A stretch of DNA of 55,943 nucleotides, taken from assembly GCA_003209165.1 (NCBI GenBank), contig QCSL01000010.1:1-55943 (forward strand), given 5' to 3'. This DNA comes from Synechococcus sp. AG-670-B23 (lineage in GTDB: Bacteria; Cyanobacteriota; Cyanobacteriia; PCC-6307; Cyanobiaceae). Position numbers and translations under genes: made by a program. Every line of letters begins with the position of its first letter. Position 1 is the first letter of the stretch. Shown here piece by piece: positions 7,730 through 11,235 of the stretch. The notes beneath the pieces were generated by a model, which worked only from the letters and a program-made list of their open reading frames with translations, was not told the origin of the DNA and made no database searches.

Positions 7730-8262
7730 TCACCAGTGCTTTCCAGCTGGCTTAGAAGGATCACAATGATAAGGCTTGTACATTGTTTCTCCAGCATCTA
7801 TTCTGCAATCACGATCTAGTTTTCCTGTTTCAATATCATATTTGATCATGAAATGAGTAGTACCACTTTTCGCTGCAACTTGAAAGCAACTATGTTGAGG
7901 TCGAAGTTGAATTTGGGAATTAAGGCCCGTGTCCAATACCCAACCGCCAAATACCGGGTGGTCCCCCTGGCCTTCTCCGAACTGTATACCTAATCGAGTA
8001 CCTCCTGGAGCGTTGTTTGCACCGTATGCAGTCATCGCAAGATCTCCAGCCGTAGCAGACCCGTTTCTTAAGTAAACAACCATGCACTCGGAAATGATTT
8101 TACTTAGCAAATCTTTGCCGGTAGCTACTTTTGCATCGTGAAGAACCTGGCGATAGCTTGGGAAGGCTAACACAGCAATTATTCCTAGAACCGCGCTATT
8201 ACTATAACAAGCTCAATTAAGCTAAATCCACAATGCTTTGTTGCGTTGATTTTTCGCCTCAT
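7730..8262 (-). pseudogene. Type IV pilin-like gene, frameshifted after the N-terminal helix
   Basis: From ATG 8262 the product begins MRRKINATKHC then GFSLIELVIVIA, a classical type IV prepilin cleavage site with Phe/Glu-5 helix. At 8191-8196 the minus strand reads GCGCGG and the frame runs into TAG. With two bases removed the expected VLGIIAVLAFPSYRQVL continues into the frame at 7730-8173, which carries a normal-looking pilin head with four Cys (including ECMVVYLRNG and HCDPSKPAG). Thus the gene is split by a CG-dinucleotide duplication: a pseudogene, a phase-variable repeat, or a sequencing error. The intact relative would form pili for DNA uptake or motility. Confidence 0.85.
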
Positions 8263-8319
8263 TAGTTCGTTTTTAAAAACTTTTTTCACGACTTTCCATC
8301 TGCTTTTTAAGTTATAGCA

Positions 8320-8514
8320 ATGGCAATCACCCTCAAGCAGCAGCAACACCGGCCACCAATGAGGACCACCAAGGCCGAACGCAAACGCCGCAGGGAAGCT
8401 GCTCTGGCCAAGATCGGCGATGGGCATGGCTTCGCAGATACCGTGGTGTTTGTGATGTCTGAGGGGGTGCAGCCGCTCAACTACAAGTTGGGACGTGCAT
8501 TGGGCTCACGGTGA
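8320..8514 (+). CDS. Small basic hypothetical ORF (64 aa)
   Basis: ATG at 8320. A basic N-terminus (MRTTKAERKRRREAALAKIG) is followed by a neutral end. There is no ribosome binding site and no recognised family. It sits between the broken pilin and the recombinase and may be a remnant. Weak call. Confidence 0.28.
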   Translation: MAITLKQQQHRPPMRTTKAERKRRREAALAKIGDGHGFADTVVFVMSEGVQPLNYKLGRALGSR

Positions 8515-8606: not shown

Positions 8607-9878
8607 TTATTGCTGTTGCTGCATCTGCTGCTGACGCTTACTGAGCGTTGCCACCACAGCCATGTTGGCGGCGTCCACTTCCTTCTCCATGTCCTGGTCG
8701 TCAATCCAGTGGCCGTTGTGGTTTATATGAATGGAAACGTTATGGCCCATAAGCCTTGCGGCAGTGCGGATGGCGATCGGTGTGTAGAGAGCAATGCGCC
8801 AAGCGAAGCCATGGCGCAGGCTGTAGGGCTTCAAGCCTTTGATCTCTACTCTCAGGACTTCATCCCAGAAAGGATGTCGATCGAGGTATTGCATAAAGGC
8901 TGCCCCGCATTCCTTGAGGCTTTTGGCGTTTCGAATACTGGTCGGGAGCTTCACCAGTCCGCTGTGCCACAGCTGCACCAGGCGCTCACCTTCTCCGGGT
9001 AGCTCTTTCAGGTTGAGCGCACGAGCAGTGCGGGGCTTTTTGGGTGTTGCCGCTGTTCTGCTGTTCCGCTTCGTGTTGCCGACTTTGAGTTTGTCGTCCT
9101 CAAAGGACAACACCGTTAATTCAGCAGGGCGCAATCCATAGAAGGCAACCAGCCCCACTGCTAAGTGCAGCTCAGGGTTGCCTTCAAGACTGTCCAGCAG
9201 CCTGATCAGCGCTGCTGGTTTCACTGGTGGAGTGTCTTCTTTGGGTGTCGTCCTAACCCCAATAAGTAGGTTCACCTCCTCATCATCAGGGGGTAGCCAT
9301 AGGTTGTCTGCGGTGCACCGCTTCACCGCAAAACTCAGGAAGCTACAGACACCATGCAGGTTGCGTTTACGGCCGTCGGAACCTGGTGGGATCGTGCTTT
9401 GGTGCTTCTCGTTGTAGAGGCGAAGGAGTGCACCAGCATCATGCGCAGCGAGATTGTGAGCCGTTGTGAGGTCAACTACACACTTTACATTGTAAGCCTC
9501 ATTGCCGTTGTAGTTCGACTCTGACAATGTTCCAGAGTCAACCCGGAAGCTGCGATAACGCTCAGCTACCACATTCCAGTTGGTTGCTTCACCAGCCAGC
9601 TCAGGACTATCTGAGATCAGTTCATATGCGTCCTTGAGGCCGATGTTCTGGTCGGCCATTGTTTCCCGCAGCTTTTTCACCAGTGCGGTAAATGCATCGC
9701 TGCTGCTGGGAGCAAAGGGCAATGGAGTGGATATGGATGGCCGTCTAGCTGATCGTCGCGTTCCTTCAATCTTCTGGATCTTGAAGCGACCGTACTGATC
9801 TTCCAGTACCCAGCCAGGACAATGGCTGCGTCGAATGACAGACCTCAGATCCTTCAACCAAGGAGCTGCCTTCGCCAT
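8607..9878 (-). CDS. Tyrosine recombinase / integrase, catalytic Tyr apparently lost
   Basis: 423 residues in the usual integrase layout: an N-terminal arm and core-binding region (about 1-200), then the catalytic domain. Seen: the first Arg in YGLRPAEL, the box II region PYSLRHGFAWRIA, and LMGHN before the nucleophile. In relatives the tyrosine lies where this protein has HINHNGHWID; the Asn at residue 388 (codon 8715-8717) sits at the expected position and is AAC, one base from TAC. The C-terminus is a Gln-rich run encoded by CAG/CAA repeats. An AAAGGA site precedes the ATG. If the Tyr is truly missing the enzyme cannot cut DNA, consistent with a fixed, decaying island around 3-11 kb. Confidence 0.88.
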   Translation of the reverse strand: MAKAAPWLKDLRSVIRRSHCPGWVLEDQYGRFKIQKIEGTRRSARRPSISTPLPFAPSSSDAFTALVKKLRETMADQNIGLKDAYELISDSPELAGEATNWNVVAERYRSFRVDSGTLSESNYNGNEAYNVKCVVDLTTAHNLAAHDAGALLRLYNEKHQSTIPPGSDGRKRNLHGVCSFLSFAVKRCTADNLWLPPDDEEVNLLIGVRTTPKEDTPPVKPAALIRLLDSLEGNPELHLAVGLVAFYGLRPAELTVLSFEDDKLKVGNTKRNSRTAATPKKPRTARALNLKELPGEGERLVQLWHSGLVKLPTSIRNAKSLKECGAAFMQYLDRHPFWDEVLRVEIKGLKPYSLRHGFAWRIALYTPIAIRTAARLMGHNVSIHINHNGHWIDDQDMEKEVDAANMAVVATLSKRQQQMQQQQ

Positions 9879-10118: not shown

Positions 10119-10430
10119 TCATCGCAGCCAGGGCGATAGTGTCACCTCCAGGGTGTATTTACCCGTGCGGGTGAAGCGAAGCGGAATGGAGTTGATGCGG
10201 ATGTAGGTCTCTCCCTGTTCGGCAGCCAGAAAGTTGAACTCATGCACAGGGCTAATTACCATTACGTTGCCGCCGAGCTGCAGGAAGTCACAGCGAAACG
10301 TCTCAACGGTGGTTTTGGTGTCGTCGTAGCTGAGCAGTCGGCAATTTGAGGCAACGATTTCAGCATTTGCCGTCATCGCTGTGGCGATGGCGAGACTTGC
10401 AGCTGCAAGGGTGGTTCGTATGCCAATCAT
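10119..10430 (-). CDS. Exported hypothetical protein (103 aa)
   Basis: The start at 10430 puts a clear signal peptide at the N-terminus (MIGIRTTLAAASLAIATAMT, cleavage after ANA). The mature part has two Cys (NCRLL, FRCDF) that could form a disulfide, and is predicted to be strand-rich: ETYIRINSIPLRFTRTGKYT followed by LEVTLSP. No family recognised. Probably a small periplasmic or secreted protein. Confidence 0.65.
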   Translation of the reverse strand: MIGIRTTLAAASLAIATAMTANAEIVASNCRLLSYDDTKTTVETFRCDFLQLGGNVMVISPVHEFNFLAAEQGETYIRINSIPLRFTRTGKYTLEVTLSPWLR

Positions 10431-10629
10431 TGGAACGTTGCGGTACGCATTGGCTTGACTTCCGAACTCACTCTGCTGTCTCAACCCTTCTAAAGCTGGC
10501 ATCTCTGGAGCGACTCCCAAGATTCTCTTAAGCATTGCGGGACGCGGCGGCAACCGATCTGCGCGATGATTTTTAAACGCGAAATGGCCGAGAGACCACG
10601 ACGCGAGATCTGAATAAGAGGAAACTCCA

Positions 10630-10788
10630 ATGAGCAGGAGAGGTATTCATCCCCTTTTGATGGGGTTGGACAAGCCCGAACGAAAACCCGTTAAGCCGTC
10701 GAAGCCAAGCGATCTATCTGGCAATGAATCCGCTCAGCGCAAGCGATTTATCCTATTAGAAGAAGAAGGCAACCAGCAGGCTGCTTGA
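10630..10788 (+). CDS. Small charged protein (52 aa)
   Basis: ATG preceded by GAGGAA at good spacing. The protein starts MSRRGIHPLLMGLDKPERKP and continues with a lysine/proline-rich stretch and an acidic helix (KRFILLEEEGNQQAA). No family recognised; it looks soluble and partly disordered. The strong terminator about 60 bases downstream closes the unit. Confidence 0.6.
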   Translation: MSRRGIHPLLMGLDKPERKPVKPSKPSDLSGNESAQRKRFILLEEEGNQQAA

Positions 10789-10845: not shown

Positions 10846-10880
10846 AAACCGCTCGTCCAGCAGGACGAGCGGTTTTTCTT
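10846..10880 (+). terminator. Rho-independent terminator
   Basis: A 13-bp stem (AAACCGCTCGTCC / GGACGAGCGGTTT) with a 4-base loop followed by TTCTTT. Serves the small gene 10630-10788. Confidence 0.88.
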
Positions 10881-10957
10881 TGTGTAAAGGAATGCGTTAA
10901 GTACCTATTGATTTTGCAGGTTAGAGGAGTAGAGATAAGTCAGTGACAAGGAGAGAG

Positions 10958-11137
10958 ATGATCACGATTTGTTCAGGATTTTTCGATCTATGCATTCCCC
11001 TCAATGCATTTGACCAGACGCAGTCCAAGCAGGCTGATCAACCCAAACAAGCAATGATGTCTCAGCACGATCTGTACTGGGAGGATCGTTGCGACAAGTC
11101 CCCCACTGCGCCTGGATGCAAGATCTACGACGATTGA
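10958..11137 (+). CDS. Mini-protein with a CP12-type C-terminal tail (59 aa)
   Basis: ATG 10958 has AAGGAG just upstream. The last 20 residues, WEDRCDKSPTAPGCKIYDD, match the GAPDH-binding tail of CP12 (pattern C-x8-C followed by [KR].YDD). CP12 is the redox switch that joins glyceraldehyde-3-phosphate dehydrogenase and phosphoribulokinase in the Calvin cycle. The N-terminal CP12 cysteine pair and the AWD core are absent; the first 35 residues are unrelated (with C5 and C12). It could dock on GAPDH without phosphoribulokinase, or only mimic the tail. The tail similarity is seen; the function is inferred. Confidence 0.65.
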   Translation: MITICSGFFDLCIPLNAFDQTQSKQADQPKQAMMSQHDLYWEDRCDKSPTAPGCKIYDD

Positions 11138-11208: not shown

Positions 11209-11235
11209 AACCCCTTGCTGCTCTGCAAGGGGGTT
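11209..11235 (+). terminator. Terminator after the CP12-tail gene
   Basis: AACCCCTTGC / GCAAGGGGGTT stem with a 6-base loop and a short T-run (TTTTG). It lies 70 bases downstream of the CP12-tail gene. Confidence 0.65.

Follow-up and report, generated by a model that had tools for sequence, protein, structure and literature searches.

A small gene lies on the forward strand of the window, by which the whole analysed stretch of 55,943 nucleotides from Synechococcus sp. AG-670-B23 is meant. It runs from an ATG at position 10958 to a TGA stop at 11135–11137 and is preceded, four bases 5′ of the start codon, by an AAGGAG ribosome-binding site (10948–10953, +) that is recognisable both in the sequence and in the alignment of 5′ regions. 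An in-frame TAG occurs 5′ of the ORF, and therefore only the GTG at 10943 could extend the product, by five residues. The 59-residue protein encoded at 10958–11137, hereafter the mini-protein, has the sequence MITICSGFFDLCIPLNAFDQTQSKQADQPKQAMMSQHDLYWEDRCDKSPTAPGCKIYDD and ends in WEDRCDKSPTAPGCKIYDD. It is the product of a real gene, as its ORF, its orthologs and their dN/dS values attest.

The mini-protein can be divided into a head, a linker and a tail. The hydrophobic head (residues 1–20, MITICSGFFDLCIPLNAFDQ; 10958–11017, +) carries C5 (10970–10972) and C12 (10991–10993) in a C-x6-C spacing and is followed by a variable linker (residues 21–34; 11018–11059, +). The CP12-like tail (residues 39–59; 11072–11134, +), identified by profile, phmmer, hhalign and conservation, contains C45 (11090–11092), P49, C54 (11117–11119) and Y57. 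Its pattern, C-x3-P-x4-C-x2-Y-D-D-stop, has the same spacing and position as in CP12. No other frame among the 863 stop-to-stop frames of at least 40 codons in the window ends in this motif, and the number of such endings expected from composition is 0.0002 per window and 0.009 per genome. The preliminary description had reported a C-x8-C...YDD tail of the CP12 type in a 59-residue protein at this place, which the ORF, the spacing and the orthologs confirm. In a single-chain AlphaFold model, a helix spans residues 36–47 and ends two residues past C45 (C+2), as in CP12. Because the model is weak (mean pLDDT 60.5, pTM 0.30), the predicted helix is taken as compatible with the geometry of the CP12 tail, and no more.

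Matches to the mini-protein at E ≤ 1 are found in 26 of the 34 genomes of the genus, and full-length copies in 22, the source genome included. Five of the 12 genomes that lack a full-length copy are at least 98% complete, and five of 19 sister genomes (G001, G005, G006, G024 and G029) have no match to the tail profile at 1e-6. All seven named ortholog loci belong to Synechococcus (e.g., MU1642 and AG-673-B04). The median dN/dS of the orthologs is 0.13 (n = 20; 110 usable of 190 pairs), indicating strong purifying selection; the linker has the highest value (0.27), compared with 0.11 in the head and 0.10 in the tail. Sequences entered this set if they began with MxTIC, with no requirement placed on the tail; one with an early stop (L017) and one with an ambiguous residue (L025) were left out. 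Residues Y40, W41, C45, S48, P49, T50, P52, G53, C54, K55 and Y57 are identical in all 20 orthologs, each of which has the C45-x3-P49-x4-C54 pair near its C-terminus. The last two residues are more variable: the penultimate position is D or E in 18/20 orthologs and the final one is A in 7/20, where the window protein has D58 and D59. In one full-length ortholog of the genus (G002), a stop replaces the last tyrosine. The head cysteines are similarly persistent, C5 being present in 22/22 and C12 in 21/22 aligned rows (L004–L025).

The gene is flanked by two terminator-like hairpins found by a terminator scan, one on its 5′ side (10846–10875, +) and one on its 3′ side (11211–11232, +), the latter followed by a T-rich stretch. 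The 3′ hairpin folds at −20.2 kcal/mol with a weak folding z-score of −1.67, and terminator-like sites number four in 701 bases where 0.7 would be expected. The presence of hairpins on both sides suggests that the gene may be transcribed alone, as a single-gene transcript. A search of the plus strand between the hairpins, 5′ of the gene, found no sigma-70-type promoter. The 5′ region is unusually conserved among orthologs, and their alignment reveals an upstream element, TTAAGTACCTATTGAT (10897–10912, +), suspected to be a promoter or operator. The sequence AAGTACCTATTG occurs unchanged in 16 of the 5′ regions aligned for 20 orthologs, with one mismatch in two and two mismatches in one, and is absent from one. 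A similar element ('ggttaagtacctattta') precedes a mini-protein with a different head at locus L064. A regulon marked by TTAAGTACCTATTGA was considered and rejected: the source genome has one exact copy and one with two mismatches, against three matches to the backward control.

A PhoH gene lies 3′ of the mini-protein gene in 8/12 ortholog loci, and three of the other four loci have just 1.5 kb of flanking sequence. In genome G003, a mini-protein with the head MNLMKCFQFPNKK (L063) adjoins PhoH, the place held by the window kind in other genomes, and a mini-protein of the window kind lies about 7 kb away. None of the scanned neighbours, six in the window and seven of other mini-proteins, is a Calvin-cycle gene. 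Two small ORFs beside the gene (10119–10553, −; 10630–10788, +) have no family matches; the former has counterparts at L146 and L150 with 64–69% identity. Farther away, at 7730–8427 (−), is what we take from its motif to be a type IV pilin-like gene split over two reading frames, with a prepilin leader, GFSLIELVIVIA, in 8185–8427 and the remainder in 7730–8173 (−). A 423-residue ORF at 8607–9878 (−), presumably a tyrosine recombinase by motif, has no significant Pfam match. Horizontal gain through this recombinase-like ORF is unsupported, given that the PhoH neighbour is kept in 8/12 ortholog loci.

CP12 is built of two halves: its front binds PRK, and its end plugs GAPDH. The Pfam model of CP12, PF02672, matches the tail half of the mini-protein alone (model positions 38–70, E 0.036) at 15.3 bits, below its cut-off of 22.7. 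When the model was run on all six frames of the source genome at E ≤ 10, it found three places, namely two full CP12s and the mini-protein (E 0.22). At the same threshold, matches were also obtained in 10/14 control genomes (over the cut-off in one), and relatives likewise give rows at chance level (E 0.1–0.6). Because control genomes also give chance matches, the genome-wide match is weak taken alone.

The relationship of the tail to CP12 emerges from further searches. Among 177,635 distinct PDB sequences, a phmmer search with the window protein yields four matches at E ≤ 10, every one of them CP12 or CBS-CP12 (E 0.02–1.2), which is weaker support than the profile results. A profile made of 19 mini-protein tails, with no CP12 among them, finds the same four CP12 entries and nothing else at E ≤ 10 (E 1e-4 to 3.6e-3). 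Against eight CP12s, hhalign gives probabilities of 89, 95 and 95% (P 2.5e-6, 4.3e-8 and 3.6e-8), with nothing aligned but the last 18–20 columns. The kinship of the tail with CP12 claimed beforehand is upheld by the PDB search with the CP12-free profile and by the hhalign probabilities over the tail. The outcome that would have refuted it, a profile search without CP12 matches, did not occur; PF02672 itself stays under its cut-off. The role suggested alongside, a redox-sensitive GAPDH regulator or decoy, stays putative.

The mini-protein as a whole is another matter. Its sequence contains neither the AWD_VEEL core of CP12 nor the PRK-binding half, and its head has nothing in common with CP12 in profile comparison. 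The statement that it lacks the rest of CP12 was correct in this respect and left unmentioned the cysteine pair of the head (C5/C12). Six residues separate these cysteines within a hydrophobic segment, and they do not correspond to the N-terminal pair of CP12, whose cysteines lie 7–8 residues apart; this pair is also missing from the two CP12s of the source genome (L001 and L002). Describing the protein as a stand-alone tail was incomplete, since it overlooked both the conserved head and the existence of a family of such proteins. What the mini-protein does have, like GapB and ADK3, is a CP12-like C-terminal module joined to a protein that is otherwise unrelated to CP12. It is not counted as a CP12 (PF02672) member, because the core is missing and the score is under the threshold. 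The possibility that it is a complete or frameshifted CP12 was ruled out, as two intact CP12s are present elsewhere in the genome and the head is unlike CP12.

Mini-protein tails share the consensus [YF]W-x3-C-x3-P-x4-C-x2-[YF]. Sixty distinct tails, selected for a W at −4, were compared with 32 tails without W (CP12), the C/P/C positions and an aromatic residue being required in both groups. In the mini-proteins so selected, K stands at +10 in 48/60 and T at +5 in 47/60. At positions that are nearly fixed in CP12 from the residue before the first cysteine onwards, and at the one before W, they mostly differ: they have [YF] instead of S before W, E/R instead of Y before the first cysteine, H/S instead of N at +3, T instead of D/E at +5, G/T/H instead of E at +8, and K instead of R. 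Several mini-proteins from small genomes stop after CKVY and have no acidic pair, and others end in YCD or YEV. With a tail consensus of their own, the mini-proteins form a separate class and are not degraded CP12s. The 19 profile tails have W, C, P and C without exception; most of them were picked for C-x8-C and an aromatic residue, not for W or P, and all came from matches similar to the window tail.

By manual count, the tail profile matches 100 of 223 genomes of the taxonomic family at E ≤ 1e-6, the 223 being those at least 95% complete plus the source genome. All matches at this threshold whose letters were read are mini-proteins, and full CP12s score mostly from 1e-4 to 7e-3, with a best of 1.6e-6 (G144, L157). 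By genus, matches occur in 15/20 genomes of g1, 60/60 of g17, 12/12 of g56, 2/2 of g39, 2/3 of g10 and 2/23 of g34, and in the single genome of each of g4, g24, g26, g31, g52, g53 and g58; the remaining genera of the family have none at E ≤ 1e-6 (e.g., g5, 0/29; g45, 0/11). In a class-wide sample, at least 37 of 388 genomes match, all within the same family (7/159 genera), and misses are possible because scoring was limited in many genomes to some 22 first-look candidates. A G+C content of 30–36% at two g17 and two g56 loci, in genomes of 1.5–2.0 Mb, would fit Prochlorococcus. At E ≤ 1e-6, there are six copies in each of G339 and G300 and five in G199; two of the G300 copies may be one duplicated piece, since they score equally.

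The heads of these proteins fall into at least eight kinds, counted by eye without clustering. The window type reads M[IVM]TICSGFFDLCIP, and the others include MKLRTPFxVIKNAxSDIRxMHDF, MKLFNQFNILP, MKLTTTFDILGD, MKLKTTFCIQDKNSRDLDNA, MNLMKCFQFPNKK, MNNLFKRPQALNTKP and MNAMACVVNPLAP, with more besides; some of the MKL kinds may be related. Existing family models cover these proteins poorly. In a Pfam search with ten mini-proteins including the window protein, only gp008 of phage S-CBS4 passes a CP12 cut-off, and of the eight others besides the window protein one matches PF02672 under the cut-off (17.5 bits) and seven have no PF02672 match. None of ten exceeds an NCBIfam cut-off. The best PHROGs match of nine is phrog_2603, a family of unknown function (E 0.0044), reached through the tail of the window protein.

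Relatives of the mini-proteins are also carried by phages. A tblastn search of 50,697 phage records, with a g56 mini-protein as query, found a 51-residue relative (61% identity, E 2e-14) in P-TIM68, a Prochlorococcus phage. Annotated as a 'hypothetical protein', it lies 12 bases behind hsp20 and is followed by two small ORFs and DNA polymerase; CP12 is encoded elsewhere in the same phage. When viral contigs were scanned with the P-TIM68 protein, 52 loci with relatives were obtained; hsp20 lies directly upstream in 47, and the sequence of the other five starts inside the gene or at most 16 bases before it. The tail is present in 42/52 loci (38 complete ORFs and four cut at the left). Three of the loci without a visible tail are cut by the contig end before it, and seven are complete, with the head kept and the tail lost. 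For the 51-residue kind, 24 distinct DNA sequences give a mean pN/pS of 0.06 in the head and 0.13 in the tail, indicating strong selection on both parts. The head also stands at this place behind hsp20 in P-SSM2 and two single-cell marine viruses, in an ORF without the tail, and in P-SSM5, where it was seen as a tblastn row only. Since phages retain such head-only versions, head and tail can evidently part. The tail-less ORFs (L185:1001–1099, L186, L187 and L246–L252) begin with the head MKLTxPFSIIxNAxSDLKRVPK and continue into a lysine-rich end. A weak tblastn overlap in P-SSM2 had raised the possibility that the head derives from Hsp20; this was discarded when the match proved to be a separate small ORF overlapping the end of hsp20.

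A motif scan of 13 other hsp20 phage loci (L188–L200) found no mini-protein tail. In S-SRM01 (L197:1136–1288), a frame directly behind hsp20 ends in C-x8-C-FGY without the proline and was not counted as a mini-protein. The 80-residue gp008 of S-CBS4 ends in STRWETLCRQSPEAPECRLYDV and exceeds the cut-offs of both PF02672 (29.1 bits, E 1.8e-6) and PF08659 (KR; 24.5 bits); it is a possible intermediate. Its gene (L258) lies near a terminase gene, and nine further relatives were found in IMG/VR (L253–L262). No mini-protein of the window kind was found in phages, where tblastn gave nothing better than chance (best E 0.09) and no viral contig matched. The established cyanophage CP12 family, phrog_627, is matched by the source genome's own CP12 at 4.9e-18 and has 360 phage records at E ≤ 1e-3. 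According to the available text of PMC5082946, cyanophages are believed to turn CP12 against the Calvin cycle.

How the tail may act is suggested by its better-known counterparts. CxxxPxxxxC ends interact with GAPDH in CP12, GapB and ADK3, according to the available text of PMC9406205. For Arabidopsis CP12, the accessible part of PMC10253348 gives residues 58–78 as the GAPDH-bound part, with a short helix (59–66) that includes Cys64 and a loop closed by a Cys64–Cys73 disulfide, and describes the C-tail as able to occupy the GAPDH active site. The terminal glutamate of GapB contacts Arg77 of the cofactor site, as excerpted in PMC4436894. The tail of the mini-protein (residues 39–59) has the same length as the GAPDH-bound part of Arabidopsis CP12.

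With moderate confidence, we favour the reading that the mini-protein docks onto photosynthetic GAPDH under redox control, CP12-like in action without being CP12, because the mini-proteins keep the plug half of CP12 and replace its front. In the oxidised cell, in the dark or under stress, a C45–C54 disulfide would close the loop, and helix 36–47, the loop and the C-terminal KIYDD would adopt the shape of the CP12 tail. The tail would then enter the active site of Gap2 (GAPDH), as the GapB extension and CP12 do, and the Calvin cycle would consume less NADPH; under the reducing conditions of light, the loop would open and GAPDH would be freed. Having no PRK-binding half, the protein might address GAPDH only, or compete with CP12 for this enzyme. 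The lineage-specific head could add a partner, a place or a trigger, with a second redox input through C5/C12. Within this scheme, we infer the disulfide, GAPDH as the target, the inhibition, the redox dependence and the role of the head. In favour of GAPDH docking are the PDB matches, the hhalign result, the tail length, the tail dN/dS of 0.10 and the phage copies. Against it are the low PF02672 score, the changed CP12 residues, the ends in A or CKVY and the G002 stop, together with the 12/34 genus genomes that have no full copy, the lack of Calvin-cycle neighbours and the weak fold model. More tentatively, and in our estimate less likely than not, marine picocyanobacteria may possess a set of many tiny head-swapped GAPDH plugs, through which several independent signals could tap, localise or shut down carbon fixation; some cyanophages possibly took one of these plugs into their replication module, behind hsp20, as a second GAPDH handle in addition to phage CP12.

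Other readings of the same tail have to be weighed against docking to GAPDH. A serious rival, which we nevertheless consider unlikely, is that the tail derives from CP12 and has been retargeted to another enzyme of the GAPDH fold, another dehydrogenase or thioredoxin, with W as a contact of its own. The mini-proteins' own consensus (K at +10 and T at +5), the acidic end missing from some of them and three GAPDH C-domain matches in the source genome speak for such a change of partner; against it, the spacing, the C-terminal position, C/P/C/Y and, in most members, the acid that follows agree with the GAPDH-binding end, and the PDB matches are exclusively to CP12. Alternatively, the protein could remain on GAPDH as a decoy or antagonist, weakly filling the tail sites with little inhibition and blocking assembly of the GAPDH-CP12-PRK complex so that the cycle keeps running or restarts more quickly. 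This is improbable in our estimate: a gene that undoes CP12 would be an odd companion in P-TIM68, which has both, even though the missing PRK-binding half, the two CP12s of the same genome and the changed loop residues, which could weaken inhibition, would all suit a decoy.

The most sceptical reading, in which a small cysteine-rich protein with a structural or metal site resembles CP12 by chance, appears very improbable. It would accommodate the heads unrelated to CP12, the mere seven or so shared positions, the score under the Pfam threshold and a genome-wide E in the range of chance matches. It is opposed by the expected frequency of the ending in a genome, by the PDB profile and hhalign results and by the possible intermediate gp008, whose PF02672 score is itself accompanied by the PF08659 match.

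In the most abundant phototrophs, redox-dependent switching between the Calvin cycle and the pentose phosphate pathway is attributed to CP12. If GAPDH-docking mini-proteins add several more plugs with other heads, GAPDH would be under richer control than supposed in these genomes, which are poor in regulators, and phages might seize GAPDH through a second gene. A literature search covering titles, the opening parts of abstracts and selected passages returned no description of such mini-proteins. A multi-copy family of tiny, head-swapped proteins with a CP12-like tail, shared with phages, in which it lies beside hsp20, thus appears to be undescribed within that search. What has been known so far, to our knowledge, are isolated CP12 tails on enzymes and full-length CP12 in cyanophages.

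CP12 includes forms with only the C-terminal cysteine pair in marine picocyanobacteria. The mini-proteins share with CP12 the C-terminal CxxxPxxxxC-x2-Y-[DE] end and its spacing, the size class and the organisms. They differ from it in having no AWD_VEEL and no PRK-binding half, in W for L/F at −4 and in the replacement of the acidic loop residues. A second, low-abundance CP12-related protein is known beside CP12, and no kinship between it and the mini-proteins is claimed. Cyanophage CP12 (phrog_627) and the phage mini-protein are both phage-borne with a CP12-type end; the former is full length, whereas the latter is a separate gene behind hsp20. The closest parallel in architecture is offered by the GapB extension, Chlamydomonas ADK3 and argininosuccinate lyase, which, as far as the available parts of the sources describe them, likewise carry a CP12 tail on an unrelated front (PMC9406205; PMC4436894). 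In those proteins the tail is attached to an enzyme, whereas in the mini-protein it follows a short head without a known domain.
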